Shown one piece after another: positions 4,181-40,400 of a stretch of DNA of 64,000 nucleotides; within the stretch, counting starts at the first letter, position 1; each line of letters opens with the position of its first letter. Source of the DNA: Acidihalobacter sp. Its GTDB lineage: Bacteria > Pseudomonadota > Gammaproteobacteria > DSM-5130 > Acidihalobacteraceae. The position numbers were made by a program, and so were the translations under genes. The notes beneath the pieces were generated by a model that worked only from the letters and a program-made list of their open reading frames with translations, ran no database searches and was not told the origin of the DNA. The stretch lies in assembly GCA_027013225.1 (NCBI GenBank), contig JALUXU010000067.1:1-64000 (forward strand), written 5' to 3'.

Positions 4181-4927
4181 TCAGGCATTGACATAGAACC
4201 AACCCTGGCGCAAACGTTTGACGATTTCCTGAACTGCGGATGGGGCAACCCGTACCTGATGCATCAATTCGATTGGGAAACCATTTTTTGAGTTCAGGTA
4301 ATTTAGCCCGGCGCCGCAGGCGACGACATGTAAATTCGGGTATTTCTTCAAGAGGGCTTGAACCTGTTGGGCATAAGGATTATTGCCCGCGCGCAATAAT
4401 TCCAATGCCCCGCCGTTGACGATCAGTTCCACTTTCATTCCCTGCTTGCCATAGGTTGCCAGAAGTTTTTTCGCCTGATCGAGCGTATGGGTGAAAGTTA
4501 CATGGTTCTCTGAGGCCACATGCAGGAGAACCCGCTTGGGATTTGTGCTAAAGCCGGTTTTTTGCAAACCGACGGCACCCATTTGATTCAATGTCGCGCG
4601 CAAAGAAGGTGTGCCGGAGTTTTCAGTGAAGCGGCCGAGCGCAAAACTGAAAATCATCAGCAACATCACGGCCACCATGCCCGCCAGTGGCCGCCAGTGC
4701 GATAATGACGAGAATGAATCGCGTCGGAAAAGGTTATTTGCAGGCTCGGGTGGTTGCATGAATGCCTGTCGAACGAGTTCTTTGGTGTCTTGTAGTTCAT
4801 GAATCTCCGTCCGCAGGGTTTCGTCGCGGCGCATCATTTGTAGCACTTCGAGACGATCGGCGGGACTCAATTCATCATCCACATAGGCGTGCAACCAGTA
4901 CTGAGAAAAGCGATTCCCAAGATTCAT
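4181..4927 (-). CDS. anti-sigma factor fused to a DsrE-like domain
   Basis: This single-pass membrane protein of 248 residues probably controls the ECF sigma factor encoded just upstream. Residues 1-60 resemble an anti-sigma N-terminus (YVDDELSPADRLEVLQMM) but lack the zinc HxxxCxxC motif. Residues about 81-99 form one hydrophobic helix. Residues about 130-248 match the DsrE/DsrF-like fold: VLLHVASENHVTFTHTLDQA, then VELIVNGGALELL, then a single conserved-type cysteine (about C204, in VVACGAG), ending in the family-like GWFYVNA. DsrE-family proteins relay sulfur or act in redox chemistry. With one helix and a cytoplasmic anti-sigma end, the DsrE part should face the periplasm (inference). The ATG overlaps the sigma stop by four bases (ATGA). 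The fusion is unusual and the anti-sigma assignment rests partly on context. Confidence 0.75.
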   Translation of the reverse strand: MNLGNRFSQYWLHAYVDDELSPADRLEVLQMMRRDETLRTEIHELQDTKELVRQAFMQPPEPANNLFRRDSFSSLSHWRPLAGMVAVMLLMIFSFALGRFTENSGTPSLRATLNQMGAVGLQKTGFSTNPKRVLLHVASENHVTFTHTLDQAKKLLATYGKQGMKVELIVNGGALELLRAGNNPYAQQVQALLKKYPNLHVVACGAGLNYLNSKNGFPIELMHQVRVAPSAVQEIVKRLRQGWFYVNA

Positions 4928-5478
4928 TTTATCCTCCTGAGCCGTGATGTTCGCACAGGCGCTTCGCTGAGATCGGACAATGCCGTCTGTAATGCTTTGC
5001 GGGCGCGATTGAGACGGCTCATCACGGTGCCAATGGGGATACTCATGATATCAGCGACTTCCGCATAGGCGAATCCGTTGATATCCACCAAAGTCACGAC
5101 TTCCCTTTGCCCTAGCGGCAAACAGGCAATCGCGGATCGAACGGCGTCGATAGTTTGTTGGCGCTGATTGAACTTTTCCGGACAGTCTTCGCAAGGAATG
5201 ATTTCATCGTCAAGGGATGATTCTGGGCGTTTTTGGCGCAGATAGGTGCGCCAGCAATTGTGCAAAATACTGTACATCCAGCTTTCTATTCTTTCCAGCT
5301 CTCGCAACTGATCCAATTTCTGCAGTGCCTTTATGAGGGTCTCTTGGACAAGGTCATCGGCTAGAGCTGGCTCGCAGCACCACGCATAGGCCATTCGGTA
5401 AAGCCGAGGCCGGCAGGCCGCAATCCTTTTTTTGAGTTCGGATCTGATTTTATGTGATTGCATTTTTGTCAAGTTCAT
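4924..5478 (-). CDS. ECF-family RNA polymerase sigma factor
   Basis: This sigma-70 family extracytoplasmic-function sigma factor has 184 residues, the usual size. Region 2 is visible around residues 25-90 (ALADDLVQETLIKAL, then RIESWMYSILHNCWRTYLR). Region 4 lies around 115-165 (CLPLGQREVVTLVDINGFAYAEVADIM, then IGTVMSRLNRARKAL), a typical helix-turn-helix. The linker holds two cysteines (CEDC). The start has a strong ribosome binding site (GGAGGAAAG, complement of about 5485-5493). It overlaps the anti-sigma gene by four bases, the usual sigma/anti-sigma arrangement. The upstream DNA is strikingly AT-rich and would hold its promoter, but no ECF-type autoregulatory promoter could be assigned. 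Confidence 0.9.
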   Translation of the reverse strand: MNLTKMQSHKIRSELKKRIAACRPRLYRMAYAWCCEPALADDLVQETLIKALQKLDQLRELERIESWMYSILHNCWRTYLRQKRPESSLDDEIIPCEDCPEKFNQRQQTIDAVRSAIACLPLGQREVVTLVDINGFAYAEVADIMSIPIGTVMSRLNRARKALQTALSDLSEAPVRTSRLRRIK

Positions 5479-5711
5479 TGTCGTCTTTCCTCCCTATCCT
5501 GACGCTCAGGATAACCTTATTATTTCAACTTAACAAATTGATTTAATTGAAATATATCAAATTATAATAATAATCTTATATGCCTATACTTTTGATTATA
5601 GGACCGCAGTCTCCTTCGCTGTTTTCCGGCTGACTACTCTCAAGCCGAAGTTGCGCTGAATGGATCGTCTGTTTAGACTTTTCGCCCCTTTTCCTTATCT
5701 CCTGCGTTCTC
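5479..5711. other. AT-rich divergent intergenic region
   Basis: This divergent spacer lies between the sigma factor and metX. Roughly 5508-5600 is strongly AT-rich, unlike its GC-rich right neighbour, and probably holds promoters for one or both sides. I could not assign a specific -35/-10 pair, and found no RNA gene or long hairpin. Composition changes sharply at metX, which may mark an old junction. Confidence 0.4.
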
Positions 5712-7459: not shown

Positions 7460-8636
7460 GCGGCACGCGCCAGGCCAGGATCCACACCACCCAACCCACC
7501 AGGGCATCGGTGATGTCTGGAATGCGTCCCGGCACCCATTGCTGATGCCATTCGAGGGCGAACCAGCCGAGAAACAGGCACACACCGCCCGCCCAGTCGG
7601 CAGCGCGCGCCCAGCGGCCGGTTCCGGCCAGCGTCCGCGCCGCTGTGGCTAGCGCCAGCGCAATCCACACCGTTGCCAGCAGACCGCCGAATCCGGGCAG
7701 CGTACCGATCTGGCGGGCGAACGGCACCCAGTTGAAGGAATAAAAATGATCACCGTGACCGCGGCGCAGTTCGTCGATGACCAGCATGCTCGCCACCGCG
7801 AGTCCGGCGAGCGCCGCACGCTGGCGCGCCGTCTGCCAGCCGAAGGACGCCAGCAGGAAGACGGCCAGCAGCGTGGCCAGCAGGTATTCGGCCGACAGCG
7901 CCTGATCCACGATTACGACCTTGAGCACGGCGACCCCAGCCATCGCCAGCGCGATCAATGGCAGCGACGGCGGGCGTAGAGCGATACGCGCCAGTAGCCC
8001 GATGCCGAACAGCTCGCAGGCATCGCAGAGAAATTTCCACATCTCGAACTGTTGCGGATGCAGGGCCGTCTCCAGCAAAGGTCGCAAACCCTGCTTAATG
8101 GTCGACATATCCGGCGAAGGCACATAGGGAAACAGCTCGGCGGCCATCCACAAGGCGGTGGCGAGCAGCGCCAGCATGGGCAGGGTGCCGGCTTCCACCC
8201 AGCCCCGGTAGATCAGCCGCAGCCAGGTACCGCTCAGCGTGTCATGGGCGAAGAACTGGGCCAGCAGCACGCCAATCAGGGCGCCCAGCGTGTTGTGCGT
8301 GATATCGGCGATCGAAGTGACGCGCCCCGGCAGGGCTTCTTGCAGGAATTCCACGCAAAAGCTCAGCCCGAAACCGGCGGCCAGCGCCAGCAGGGCAGAG
8401 GGCAGACGCCCGATCCGGCGCCAGGCGACCGCGAACAAAAAGCCTAGCGGCACATACGCCAATATATTGACCAGGATGTCCGAGCGCGCGTCATAGCGCG
8501 GCCAGGGGTAGCTAAGCGGATCGCGCCACACGAGTGGCGGATGCCAGTCCAGCGGGAACAGGCTGGCATAGGCGATCAGCAGGAGATAGAGCAGGCTGAG
8601 CCAGAACAGCGGTGAAGGCCGCCGACGGTGGATCAT
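7446..8636 (-). CDS. VanZ-like family membrane protein
   Basis: This polytopic inner-membrane protein of 396 residues has around ten hydrophobic helices. The N-terminal half matches the VanZ family: LLIAYASLFPLDW, then SDILVNILAYVPLGFLFA and VEFLQEALPGRVTSIADITHN. The C-terminal half is a further set of hydrophobic segments. VanZ-like proteins are of poorly known function; the founding member gives low-level teicoplanin resistance. I start it at the ATG overlapping the TerB stop (ATGA, 8633-8636). A longer in-frame extension upstream would lie entirely inside the TerB gene and has no family-like residues. It is probably translationally coupled to TerB. Confidence 0.8.
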   Translation of the reverse strand: MIHRRRPSPLFWLSLLYLLLIAYASLFPLDWHPPLVWRDPLSYPWPRYDARSDILVNILAYVPLGFLFAVAWRRIGRLPSALLALAAGFGLSFCVEFLQEALPGRVTSIADITHNTLGALIGVLLAQFFAHDTLSGTWLRLIYRGWVEAGTLPMLALLATALWMAAELFPYVPSPDMSTIKQGLRPLLETALHPQQFEMWKFLCDACELFGIGLLARIALRPPSLPLIALAMAGVAVLKVVIVDQALSAEYLLATLLAVFLLASFGWQTARQRAALAGLAVASMLVIDELRRGHGDHFYSFNWVPFARQIGTLPGFGGLLATVWIALALATAARTLAGTGRWARAADWAGGVCLFLGWFALEWHQQWVPGRIPDITDALVGWVVWILAWRVPLRPA

Positions 8637-37470: not shown

Positions 37471-40400
37471 TCAAAGAAGCACGCGCTCGATTCCCCCGTT
37501 CCGTATCCTGGCAACAAAACTTTCCGCCCAGTCGTCTCCAAACTGTTTGCGCGCCAGCTCGACAACGATGTAGTCGGTGTCAAGGCCCGTGTCTTCGCGG
37601 TATCGTTCCAACCCTTGTTGGCATGCTGGGCAACTGGTCAGAAGCTTCACCTTGCCGTTTTCCACCACGTCTTTGCCAGTGAGCGCGCGCACGCCCTTAC
37701 GCAGTTCCTCTTCCTTGCGGAAACGCACCTGGGCGGCAATATCCGGACGGCTGACGCCAAAAGTGCCCGCTTCGCCGCAACAGCGATCCGACAACGGCAC
37801 TTCCTGGCCCATCAACATCGACGCCACTTCGGTGGGGTTATATGTTTTTATCGGTGTATGGCAGGGATCGTGATAGAGGTATTGCTCTCCATTCACGCCT
37901 TCCAACTTGACGCCCTTTTCCATCAGATATTCGTGTATGTCCAGCAACCGGCAGCCGGGGAAGATGCGCTCAAATTCGTATTTGAGCAGTTGGTCCATGC
38001 ACGTGCCGCAGGACACGATCACGGTTTTGATGTCGAGATAGTTAAGAGTGTTTGCCACACGATGGAACAACACTCTGTTCTCGGTGGAGATGGCGCGACC
38101 TTTCTCCTCGTCACCGGCAGAGGTTTGTGGGTAGCCGCAGCATAAATAGCCGGGCGGAAGCACTGTCTGGACGCCCACCTCGTACAGCATCGCCAGCGTG
38201 GCGAGACCGATCTGGCTGAACAGGCGTTCGGAACCGCAGCCGGGAAAATAAAACACCGCTTCGGAATCCACGCTGCTTCGATCGGGGTCGCGCAGGATGG
38301 GTACCTGGGCAGCATCCTCGATACCGAGCAGGGCGCGCATGGTGCGCGCCGGCAGCTTGCCAGGCATCGGTTTTTTCACAAACTGGATCACCTGTGCGGG
38401 TAGGGGCTGCGGGCGCGGCGTGGCTGCCGGACGGCGCTCTTTTTGCAGCAGACCCAGCCGGCGAAATATCTGATGCGCTAGGCGCTGACCGGCGTAACCC
38501 CACTGGATCATGGCCTTGCGCATGGCGCGGATGGTGGCCGGGTCCTTCACATTCAAAAAAGCCATGGACGCTGCTGTGATCGGGCTCGATCGCCGCTGGC
38601 CGCGTTGTTTGAGAATGTGGCGCATACGGATGGTGACGTCGCCGAAGTCGATGTTCACCGGACAAGGCGTCAGGCACTTGTGGCAGATCGTGCAATGATC
38701 GGCCACTTCATTCATTTCCTCGAAATGCCGCAGGGAGATGCCCCGGCGTGTCTGTTCTTCGTATAGGAACGCTTCAATCATCAATCCGGTGGCGAGAATC
38801 TTATTGCGCGGCGAATACAACAGATTGGCCCGCGGCACGTGTGTTGTGCAGACCGGCTTGCATTTGCCGCAGCGCAGACAGTCTTTGATGTCATTGTTCA
38901 AATCGCCCAGCTCGCTGGCTTCGAGGATGAGCGCCTCCTGTTCCACCAGCCTGAGCGACGGTGTATAGGCGTGCTCCAGGCCTGAGCCGGGCATGAGCTT
39001 GCCCTTGTTGAAGTGTCCATCAGGATCGACGCGGCGCTTATACTCGGCGAATGCCTCGATTACTTCCGGTTGTAGATACTGAATCTTGGTGAGTCCAATG
39101 CCGTGTTCGCCGGAAATGACCCCGCCTAGAGAGCGCGCCAGATCCATGATCTCGTCGACCACTTTTTCCGCTTCATGCAGCATGTTGTAGTCATTGGAGT
39201 TGACTGGGATGTTGGTATGCACGTTGCCGTCGCCGGCGTGCATGTGGAGGGCGATGAACAGGCGGCTGGCAAGAATTTCGTCGTGTAACTTGTCAAGACG
39301 GGTGCGCAGCGCCTGATATTCCCGTCCCTCGAAGATCTCCTTCAAAGGTCGCTCGATTTCGGCGCGATAGGACACCCTGAGCTGCCGGCGGAGTAACAGG
39401 CGCATCAGCGTATCCCCCGGGGTGAGTTGGGCGCGCAAGGGCTCGGGCAACAACCCCGCATGCCGTGCCGCCGGTTCGTCGGCGTGCTCGAGCAGCGCTT
39501 CCCATCGTGATTTGACGGCATATAGATGATTCAGCGCCGCATTGCGTTTGCTGACAAATTCGGCATTGCTCTCCGCGCTGGCTCCAAAATCTGGCGTTGG
39601 GCGGCGTTCGGCCGGTTCTTCGCCGAGGCAGGCGATAATGGCCTCGATCATGCGCAGCTTGTTGCGGATCGACAAGCGGATGTTGATCCGTTCTATGCCT
39701 TCGCTGTAGGCGGCCAGATGTTCCAGAGGGATGACCACGTCTTCGTTGATCTTGAAGGCGTTGGTATGTGCGGCGATGGCCGCGGTACGTGCGCGGTCGG
39801 CCCAGAAACGCTTTCTCGCCTCGGGACTGACGGCAATAAAACCCTCGCCGCCACGGCGGTTTGTTGCTCGCACCACTTCCGCAGCCGCGCGCGCCACGGC
39901 GTCGGCGTCGTCACCCGCAATGTCTGCGATCAATACCATTTTGGGGCGTTCGCCGCGGGCGCTCTTGGGGGTATATCCCACTGCGCGCACATAGCGTTCA
40001 TCCAGATGTTCCAATCCCGACAGCACCACGTCCGGATCGGCATCCAACATGCGCTTGATTTCGACGATGGCTGAGACGGCTTCGCTCAGATCGTCGCCGT
40101 AAAACTCCATGCATAGCGTGCGGATATGCGCCGGCATGCGGTGCAGCACAAACAGCGCCGAGGTGATCAGGCCGTCGCAGCCTTCCTTCTGCACACCTGG
40201 CAAGCCGCCCAGGAATTTATCGGTCACGTCCTTGCCAAGCCCGGCCTTACGAAACATGCGTCCGGGAAATGTCAGGATTTCCGGTTCGCCGACGGGGGTG
40301 CGGCCGTTGGTTTTGTAGCGGGTGAGGCGAAATCGCACTGTATCCTGTTCGTGAATTTTGCCTAGGTTATGGCCGAGGCGTTCAACTTCCAGCCAGCTGC

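Follow-up and report, generated by a model that had tools for sequence, protein, structure and literature searches.

An ECF sigma/anti-sigma pair with a DsrE-like candidate sensor domain and a predicted sulfur oxidation regulon in Gammaproteobacteria

RESULTS

An ECF sigma factor gene overlaps the gene of a predicted anti-sigma factor with a DsrE-like domain

The stretch of DNA analyzed here, called the window, is 64,000 nucleotides long and carries on its minus strand a gene for an ECF sigma factor together with a gene for an anti-sigma-like protein. Anatomy, conservation, topology bias, the shared promoter, and regulon content were computed from sequence. The features are as follows.

4924 to 5478, minus strand: ECF sigma factor, 184 amino acids (Pfam Sigma70_r4_2, 1.7e-15; Sigma70_r2, 2.6e-14; TIGR02937, 1.2e-25)
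4181 to 4927, minus strand: predicted anti-sigma factor, 248 amino acids, DsrE-like in its C-terminal half (full-length homologues in many Gammaproteobacteria)
4760 to 4900, minus strand: predicted cytoplasmic N-terminal anti-sigma domain, residues ~10 to 56, without zinc motif (weak profile matches, helices of the model)
4634 to 4690, minus strand: single transmembrane helix, residues 80 to 98 (hydropathy 2.19; positive-inside bias in 68/74 homologues)
4184 to 4540, minus strand: DsrE-like domain, residues 130 to 248 (last ~119), predicted periplasmic (profile, Foldseek, pLDDT)
4316 to 4318, minus strand: codon of Cys204, the only cysteine of the protein, invariant (74/74 homologues)
4199 to 4204, minus strand: codons of Gly242-Trp243 in the last part of the DsrE domain, both invariant (74/74 homologues)
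5500 to 5526, minus strand: predicted ECF promoter of the sigma gene, GAAATAAT-N14-CGTCA, 21 bases before the start codon (score 11.6)

The first-pass annotation had reported that the two genes share four bases, and indeed, they overlap by an ATGA at the positions listed; an AGGAGG ribosome site lies ahead of the start of the anti-sigma gene. Both Pfam matches of the sigma protein were far over the cut-off, as for an ordinary ECF factor. It has only sigma-70 regions 2 and 4, falls into the class of ~180 to 200 amino acids, and is adjoined by an anti-sigma gene, and is thus an ECF member. In the window, metX and then metW are divergent to the sigma gene (5479-5711), where relatives carry genes for a secreted DsrE and a porin.

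The anti-sigma protein is predicted to span the membrane once

The N terminus gave a subthreshold match to zf-HC2 (0.0015), from which it appears to be of the anti-sigma type, with sigma binding predicted. The NCBIfam antisigma model matched with 3.8e-5 and RseA_N matched weakly in 2 of 13 members, and the region is helical in the AlphaFold model. The HxxxCxxC zinc motif was found in none of the 74 homologous fusions, and therefore, the protein does not belong to the zinc-binding anti-sigma (ZAS) factors. A single hydrophobic helix was present at residues 80 to 98, in agreement with the one membrane helix noticed at first pass. Lysine and arginine residues averaged 3.5 before the helix but only 0.7 after it, and their number was higher before than after in 68 of the 74 homologues. 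By the positive-inside rule, and given that the sigma factor has to be retained in the cytoplasm, the DsrE domain is expected on the periplasmic side. This is the orientation that had been proposed for it, and the charge bias argues against a cytoplasmic C-terminal part.

The C-terminal half is DsrE-like and contains one invariant cysteine

In a single-sequence search, the window protein alone gave only weak matches to ST0148 (E, 0.02) and MTH1491 (E, 0.2); by itself, it was below the Pfam cut-off for DsrE and likewise under the cut-off of the PDB search, and as a query of the genome contigs, it gave no match. For the fusion set, full-length homologues were gathered as relatives from 56 genomes. 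A profile of 13 fusions matched MTH1491 with an E value of 2.9e-18 and ST0148 with 4e-12, and 5 of its 13 members matched Pfam DsrE. The AlphaFold model had a pLDDT of 89 to 97 across the domain, and the top Foldseek matches were 1l1s (MTH1491; TM 0.89 by target), an engineered relative, and 2pd2 (ST0148), followed by weaker matches to Swol_2425 DsrE, SSO1126, and DsrEFH. Judged from profile and predicted fold, the domain is real and DsrE/DsrF-like (PF02635 superfamily) and belongs to the MTH1491/ST0148 branch, which is its only sequence kin among DsrE/DsrF-like proteins. The early reading of the C-terminal half as DsrE-like is borne out, and the domain search did not place it in an unrelated family. 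To our knowledge, MTH1491 and ST0148, the closest solved relatives, have no known function, which counts against the explanation favored below.

Three residues of the domain, C204, G242, and W243, are invariant in the alignment of 74 fusions; the single cysteine that had been singled out at first pass is thus conserved throughout. The fused domain shares with MTH1491 (1l1s) and ST0148 (2pd2) the same fold and a conserved cysteine where a strand ends and a helix follows. However, MTH1491, ST0148, DsrEFH, and TusBCD are soluble cytoplasmic proteins, whereas the domain studied here forms part of an anti-sigma protein and is predicted to lie in the periplasm. Alignment with Escherichia coli TusD and TusC gave no usable sequence match to the domain. 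Because of the missing match to TusD and the predicted periplasmic position, the domain is not counted as a member of the DsrEFH/TusBCD relay, and since it is related to classical DsrE/TusD only distantly, by fold, sulfur relay as such should not be assumed. That C204 is the counterpart of the active cysteine of TusD is a lead.

A secreted DsrE and a porin are encoded divergently in relatives

Relatives carry, divergent to their sigma/anti-sigma operon, a small DsrE gene with a signal peptide-like start, and a porin gene (Porin_O_P) follows it. When the alignment of secreted DsrE proteins was used as the query of the genome contigs, 80 loci were obtained, including those of Sedimenticola, Thiolapillus, Halothiobacillus, Thiomicrospira, Thiomicrorhabdus, and Thiotrichaceae. 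Sigma factor, full fusion, and DsrE, nearly always with the porin, were arranged as a divergon in 61 of these 80, and several of the remaining loci end at contig edges. The 61 loci come mostly from sulfur-oxidizing or vent Gammaproteobacteria. Since the partner outer-membrane gene encodes a Porin_O_P-like porin and not a TonB-dependent receptor, the system is not of the FecR cell-surface signaling type.

The cysteine of the secreted DsrE partners that aligns with C204 is also invariant, and in a comparison of the fused and secreted DsrE profiles (E, 1e-18), the cysteines were aligned. A tree of 151 domains resolved the secreted DsrE proteins as a group of their own (support, 0.989); the fused domain did not, therefore, arise by recent copying of its neighbor. 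In the window genome, the secreted DsrE and porin genes have moved to contig C57 (L116, 5345-7333), with the promoter kept (TGGGAATAAATCGATCATCCTTTGCCTCTAA); a rhodanese gene (7613-8041) adjoins the pair there. Assignment of this secreted DsrE as a thiosulfate dehydrogenase was rejected, since the NCBIfam match was weak (2.8e-5) and did not recur with nine homologues.

Variant loci also occur: in L045, L049, L051, L052, L056, and L059, genes for a secreted thioredoxin-family protein (CPPC) and for a secreted DsrE of a second branch are inserted in the space that separates the sigma promoter from the DsrE-porin pair. A DUF302 protein that is encoded near the fusion and a secreted DsrE in another family (L026, 6215-6871) may belong to this sulfur module as well. 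In G084, G136, G208, G047, G013, and G005, the fusion was present as two or three paralogues; these possibly sense different sulfur compounds, and some (L030, L032) have targets other than DsrE-porin.

Both directions of the divergon share one ECF-type promoter

The divergon has a predicted promoter of one ECF type for both directions, GGAATAAA-N14-CRTCT. GGAAT-N17-CGTC was present in 40 of 59 intergenic regions, while no pair of this kind exceeded 8 in shuffled sequence, and in most loci each of the two directions, toward sigma and toward DsrE, has its own site. A promoter matrix was built from divergon sites of other species and applied to 199 upstream regions; the best 18 were all those of sigma, DsrE, or porin genes, with several of the scored loci having contributed to the matrix, but not three in-family relatives, L026, L031, L032, L116, or the window. 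The next after the best 18 was glmU of the window (10.6), and then none was above 4.4. The sigma promoter of the window matched most weakly (GAAAT in place of GGAAT; score, 11.6), which counts against the explanation favored below. The motif is thus found ahead of the sigma genes in most loci and, weaker and correctly spaced, in the window, and autoregulation of the sigma factor via a GGAA-type -35 and a CGTC-type -10 element is predicted. A further match in the window at 39322 (minus strand), inside a gene for a 1,280-amino-acid protein, was treated as chance.

The predicted regulon includes sox genes

A pattern search of the whole window genome gave seven matches versus none for the reversed pattern; since the pattern had been slightly widened for two sites already seen in this genome, only the remaining five matches count as independent. 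The matches were the sigma promoter, DsrE-porin, soxX-soxY, soxB, a ResB gene (cytochrome c biogenesis), an HbpS-like gene, and a site within an RND gene, which was taken as chance. In the three in-family relatives, a site was present ahead of both soxB and soxX, in two of them also ahead of a PF04143 (Sulf_transp) sulfur transporter gene, and in one ahead of a periplasmic thioredoxin gene. From this predicted gene content, a sulfur signal becomes much more likely than could be known at first pass. As a separate observation at L119 (1192-1491 and 2-499), the HbpS-like gene encodes a short secreted protein, has the motif ahead of it, and adjoins a sulfide:quinone reductase-like gene; it is possibly another member of the regulon.

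The DsrE domain could instead sense the periplasmic thiol/disulfide redox state or oxidative damage and not a sulfur substrate. One invariant cysteine would suit a redox switch, and so would the secreted thioredoxin-like protein of the variant loci and the in-family site ahead of a periplasmic thioredoxin gene. However, the protein has no second cysteine for an intramolecular disulfide, and the predicted targets (soxXY, soxB, Sulf_transp, DsrE) serve sulfur uptake and oxidation, not redox repair, and we regard this explanation as unlikely compared to sensing of a sulfur compound.

Association of the fusion with soxB

The full fusion was found in about a sixth of the sampled Gammaproteobacteria, while a draw of 399 genomes outside this class gave DsrE-only matches and no full fusion. 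Among 30 soxB loci of Gammaproteobacteria, the motif (counted if it scored at least 12, just upstream and in the right direction) preceded soxB in 8 of 17 genomes with the fusion versus 0 of 13 without it (P = 0.004), and it was present ahead of soxB in several families besides that of the window. The soxB gene itself was found in about 49 of 62 fusion genomes versus 60 of 277 others, with the reservation that the two genome draws may differ slightly and that related genomes are not independent. A genome of the same genus without the fusion had neither soxB nor soxY.

No soxB was detected at threshold in 13 of the 62 fusion genomes, which counts against the favored explanation. Moreover, the soxB motif was missing in about half of the fusion genomes, and outside the family of the window, the core regulon comprises sigma, DsrE, and porin only. 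Since about half of the fusion genomes have sox without the site, sigma, DsrE, and porin appear to be the constant core, to which sox was recruited in some lineages, including that of the window. If the system served mainly outer-membrane/porin homeostasis or an envelope response, the DsrE domain only docked the secreted DsrE, and the sox linkage was local to the family of the window, one would expect just this: a porin that is, with DsrE, the most constant target and sox promoters that often lack the motif. Yet the co-occurrence with soxB is strong class-wide, the motif precedes soxB in several other families, and two DsrE proteins with an invariant cysteine point to sulfur. Such a role therefore seems quite improbable.

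DISCUSSION

We consider it probable that the ECF sigma/anti-sigma pair switches on the uptake and oxidation of thiosulfate (reduced sulfur) by means of a periplasmic sensor of sulfur compounds. The identity of the signal, the chemistry at C204, the contact with the secreted partner, and the step that releases sigma are inferred. The N terminus of the anti-sigma factor would hold the sigma factor at the inner membrane, and the single helix would place the DsrE-like domain in the periplasm. There, a reduced sulfur species, be it thiosulfate, tetrathionate, polysulfide, or a persulfide, may be loaded onto C204 or modify it, either directly or via the secreted DsrE partner. Such a modification is plausible, since DsrE homologues elsewhere are known to carry thiosulfate or sulfane sulfur on a cysteine (Liu et al. 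2014, as cited in PMC6335251). The change at C204 would then release sigma, and free sigma would read the GGAATAAA-N14-CRTCT promoters, that is, its own, that of the secreted DsrE and porin, and in the family of the window those of soxXY, soxB, and others. Delivery of the sulfur could be the task of the secreted DsrE, and the reset that of the thioredoxin in the variant loci.

A bolder version, which we put forward tentatively, is a new sensor class in which the DsrE domain of the anti-sigma factor and the secreted DsrE swap sulfane sulfur or thiosulfonate between their invariant cysteines, such that loading of C204 would free sigma for thiosulfate uptake and Sox across chemolithotrophic Gammaproteobacteria. 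An anti-sigma factor normally receives its signal through its extracytoplasmic domain. With that, and with a separate secreted DsrE already there for the role of a carrier, it is very improbable that the fused DsrE acts as a sulfur carrier or enzyme tethered to the membrane and sits on the anti-sigma chain by chance while another signal releases sigma, even if DsrE homologues elsewhere do carry sulfane sulfur or thiosulfate (Liu et al. 2014, as cited in PMC6335251).

Control of sox and of sulfite oxidation by ECF factors is already known. In Arcobacter butzleri, ECF sigma-2 is controlled by a membrane anti-sigma factor and raises sox expression and sulfur oxidation, and deletion of the anti-sigma factor activates (PMC3445524). 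This resembles what is predicted for the pair in the window, a membrane anti-sigma-controlled ECF factor acting on sox, but A. butzleri belongs to another phylum, the signal is not known, no DsrE domain, DsrE partner, or porin is reported, and the effect on sox is part of a network that includes nap (PMC3445524). RpoE1 and RpoE4 (ECF26) of Sinorhizobium meliloti respond to thiosulfate/taurine metabolism, control the periplasmic SorT, and are autoregulated (PMC3511301). Common to both systems are ECF factors and, as predictions for the window, anti-sigma control, a periplasmic sulfur oxidation target, and autoregulation; however, the signal proposed in S. meliloti is sulfite made inside the cell, the target is a sulfite dehydrogenase, and a DsrE fusion is not reported (PMC3511301). 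A one-helix anti-sigma factor with a secreted partner is known from RseA/RseB (PMC8103513). RseA of the RpoE system of E. coli has, as predicted for the window protein, a cytoplasmic anti-sigma domain, one helix, and a periplasmic sensor, and RseB is the secreted partner that contacts it, but the putative sensor described here is DsrE-like, no DegS-type signal is known for it, and the predicted targets belong to sulfur metabolism. TspS/TspR of Acidithiobacillus caldus also leads from membrane sensing to sox in an acidophilic sulfur oxidizer, but it is, as reviewed in PMC6335251, a Sigma-54-dependent histidine kinase/response regulator and not an ECF/anti-sigma pair.

A literature search for DsrE with anti-sigma, porin, or sox did not find the fusion described, in line with the first-pass statement that it was not known as a described system; subscription journals were outside the scope of this search, and an earlier description is possible, above all in papers on ECF classification. 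Within this scope, what is new is the putative DsrE sensor, the secreted DsrE partner, and the porin divergon. Sulfur sensing and Sox induction are largely open in free-living and symbiotic sulfur-oxidizing Gammaproteobacteria, for which a widespread candidate sensor, its promoter, and a predicted regulon can now be named. The proposal also offers a possible role for secreted DsrE proteins and the neighboring porin, and the sensor might serve as a ready-made detector of sulfur compounds in reporter strains.

Elsewhere in the window, the gene at 77-1990 encodes a protein with a serine/threonine protein kinase domain and, in its N-terminal half, HEAT repeats, and it adjoins pilT/pilU-like genes; a similar gene adjoins pilT/pilU in the family members L021-L023.
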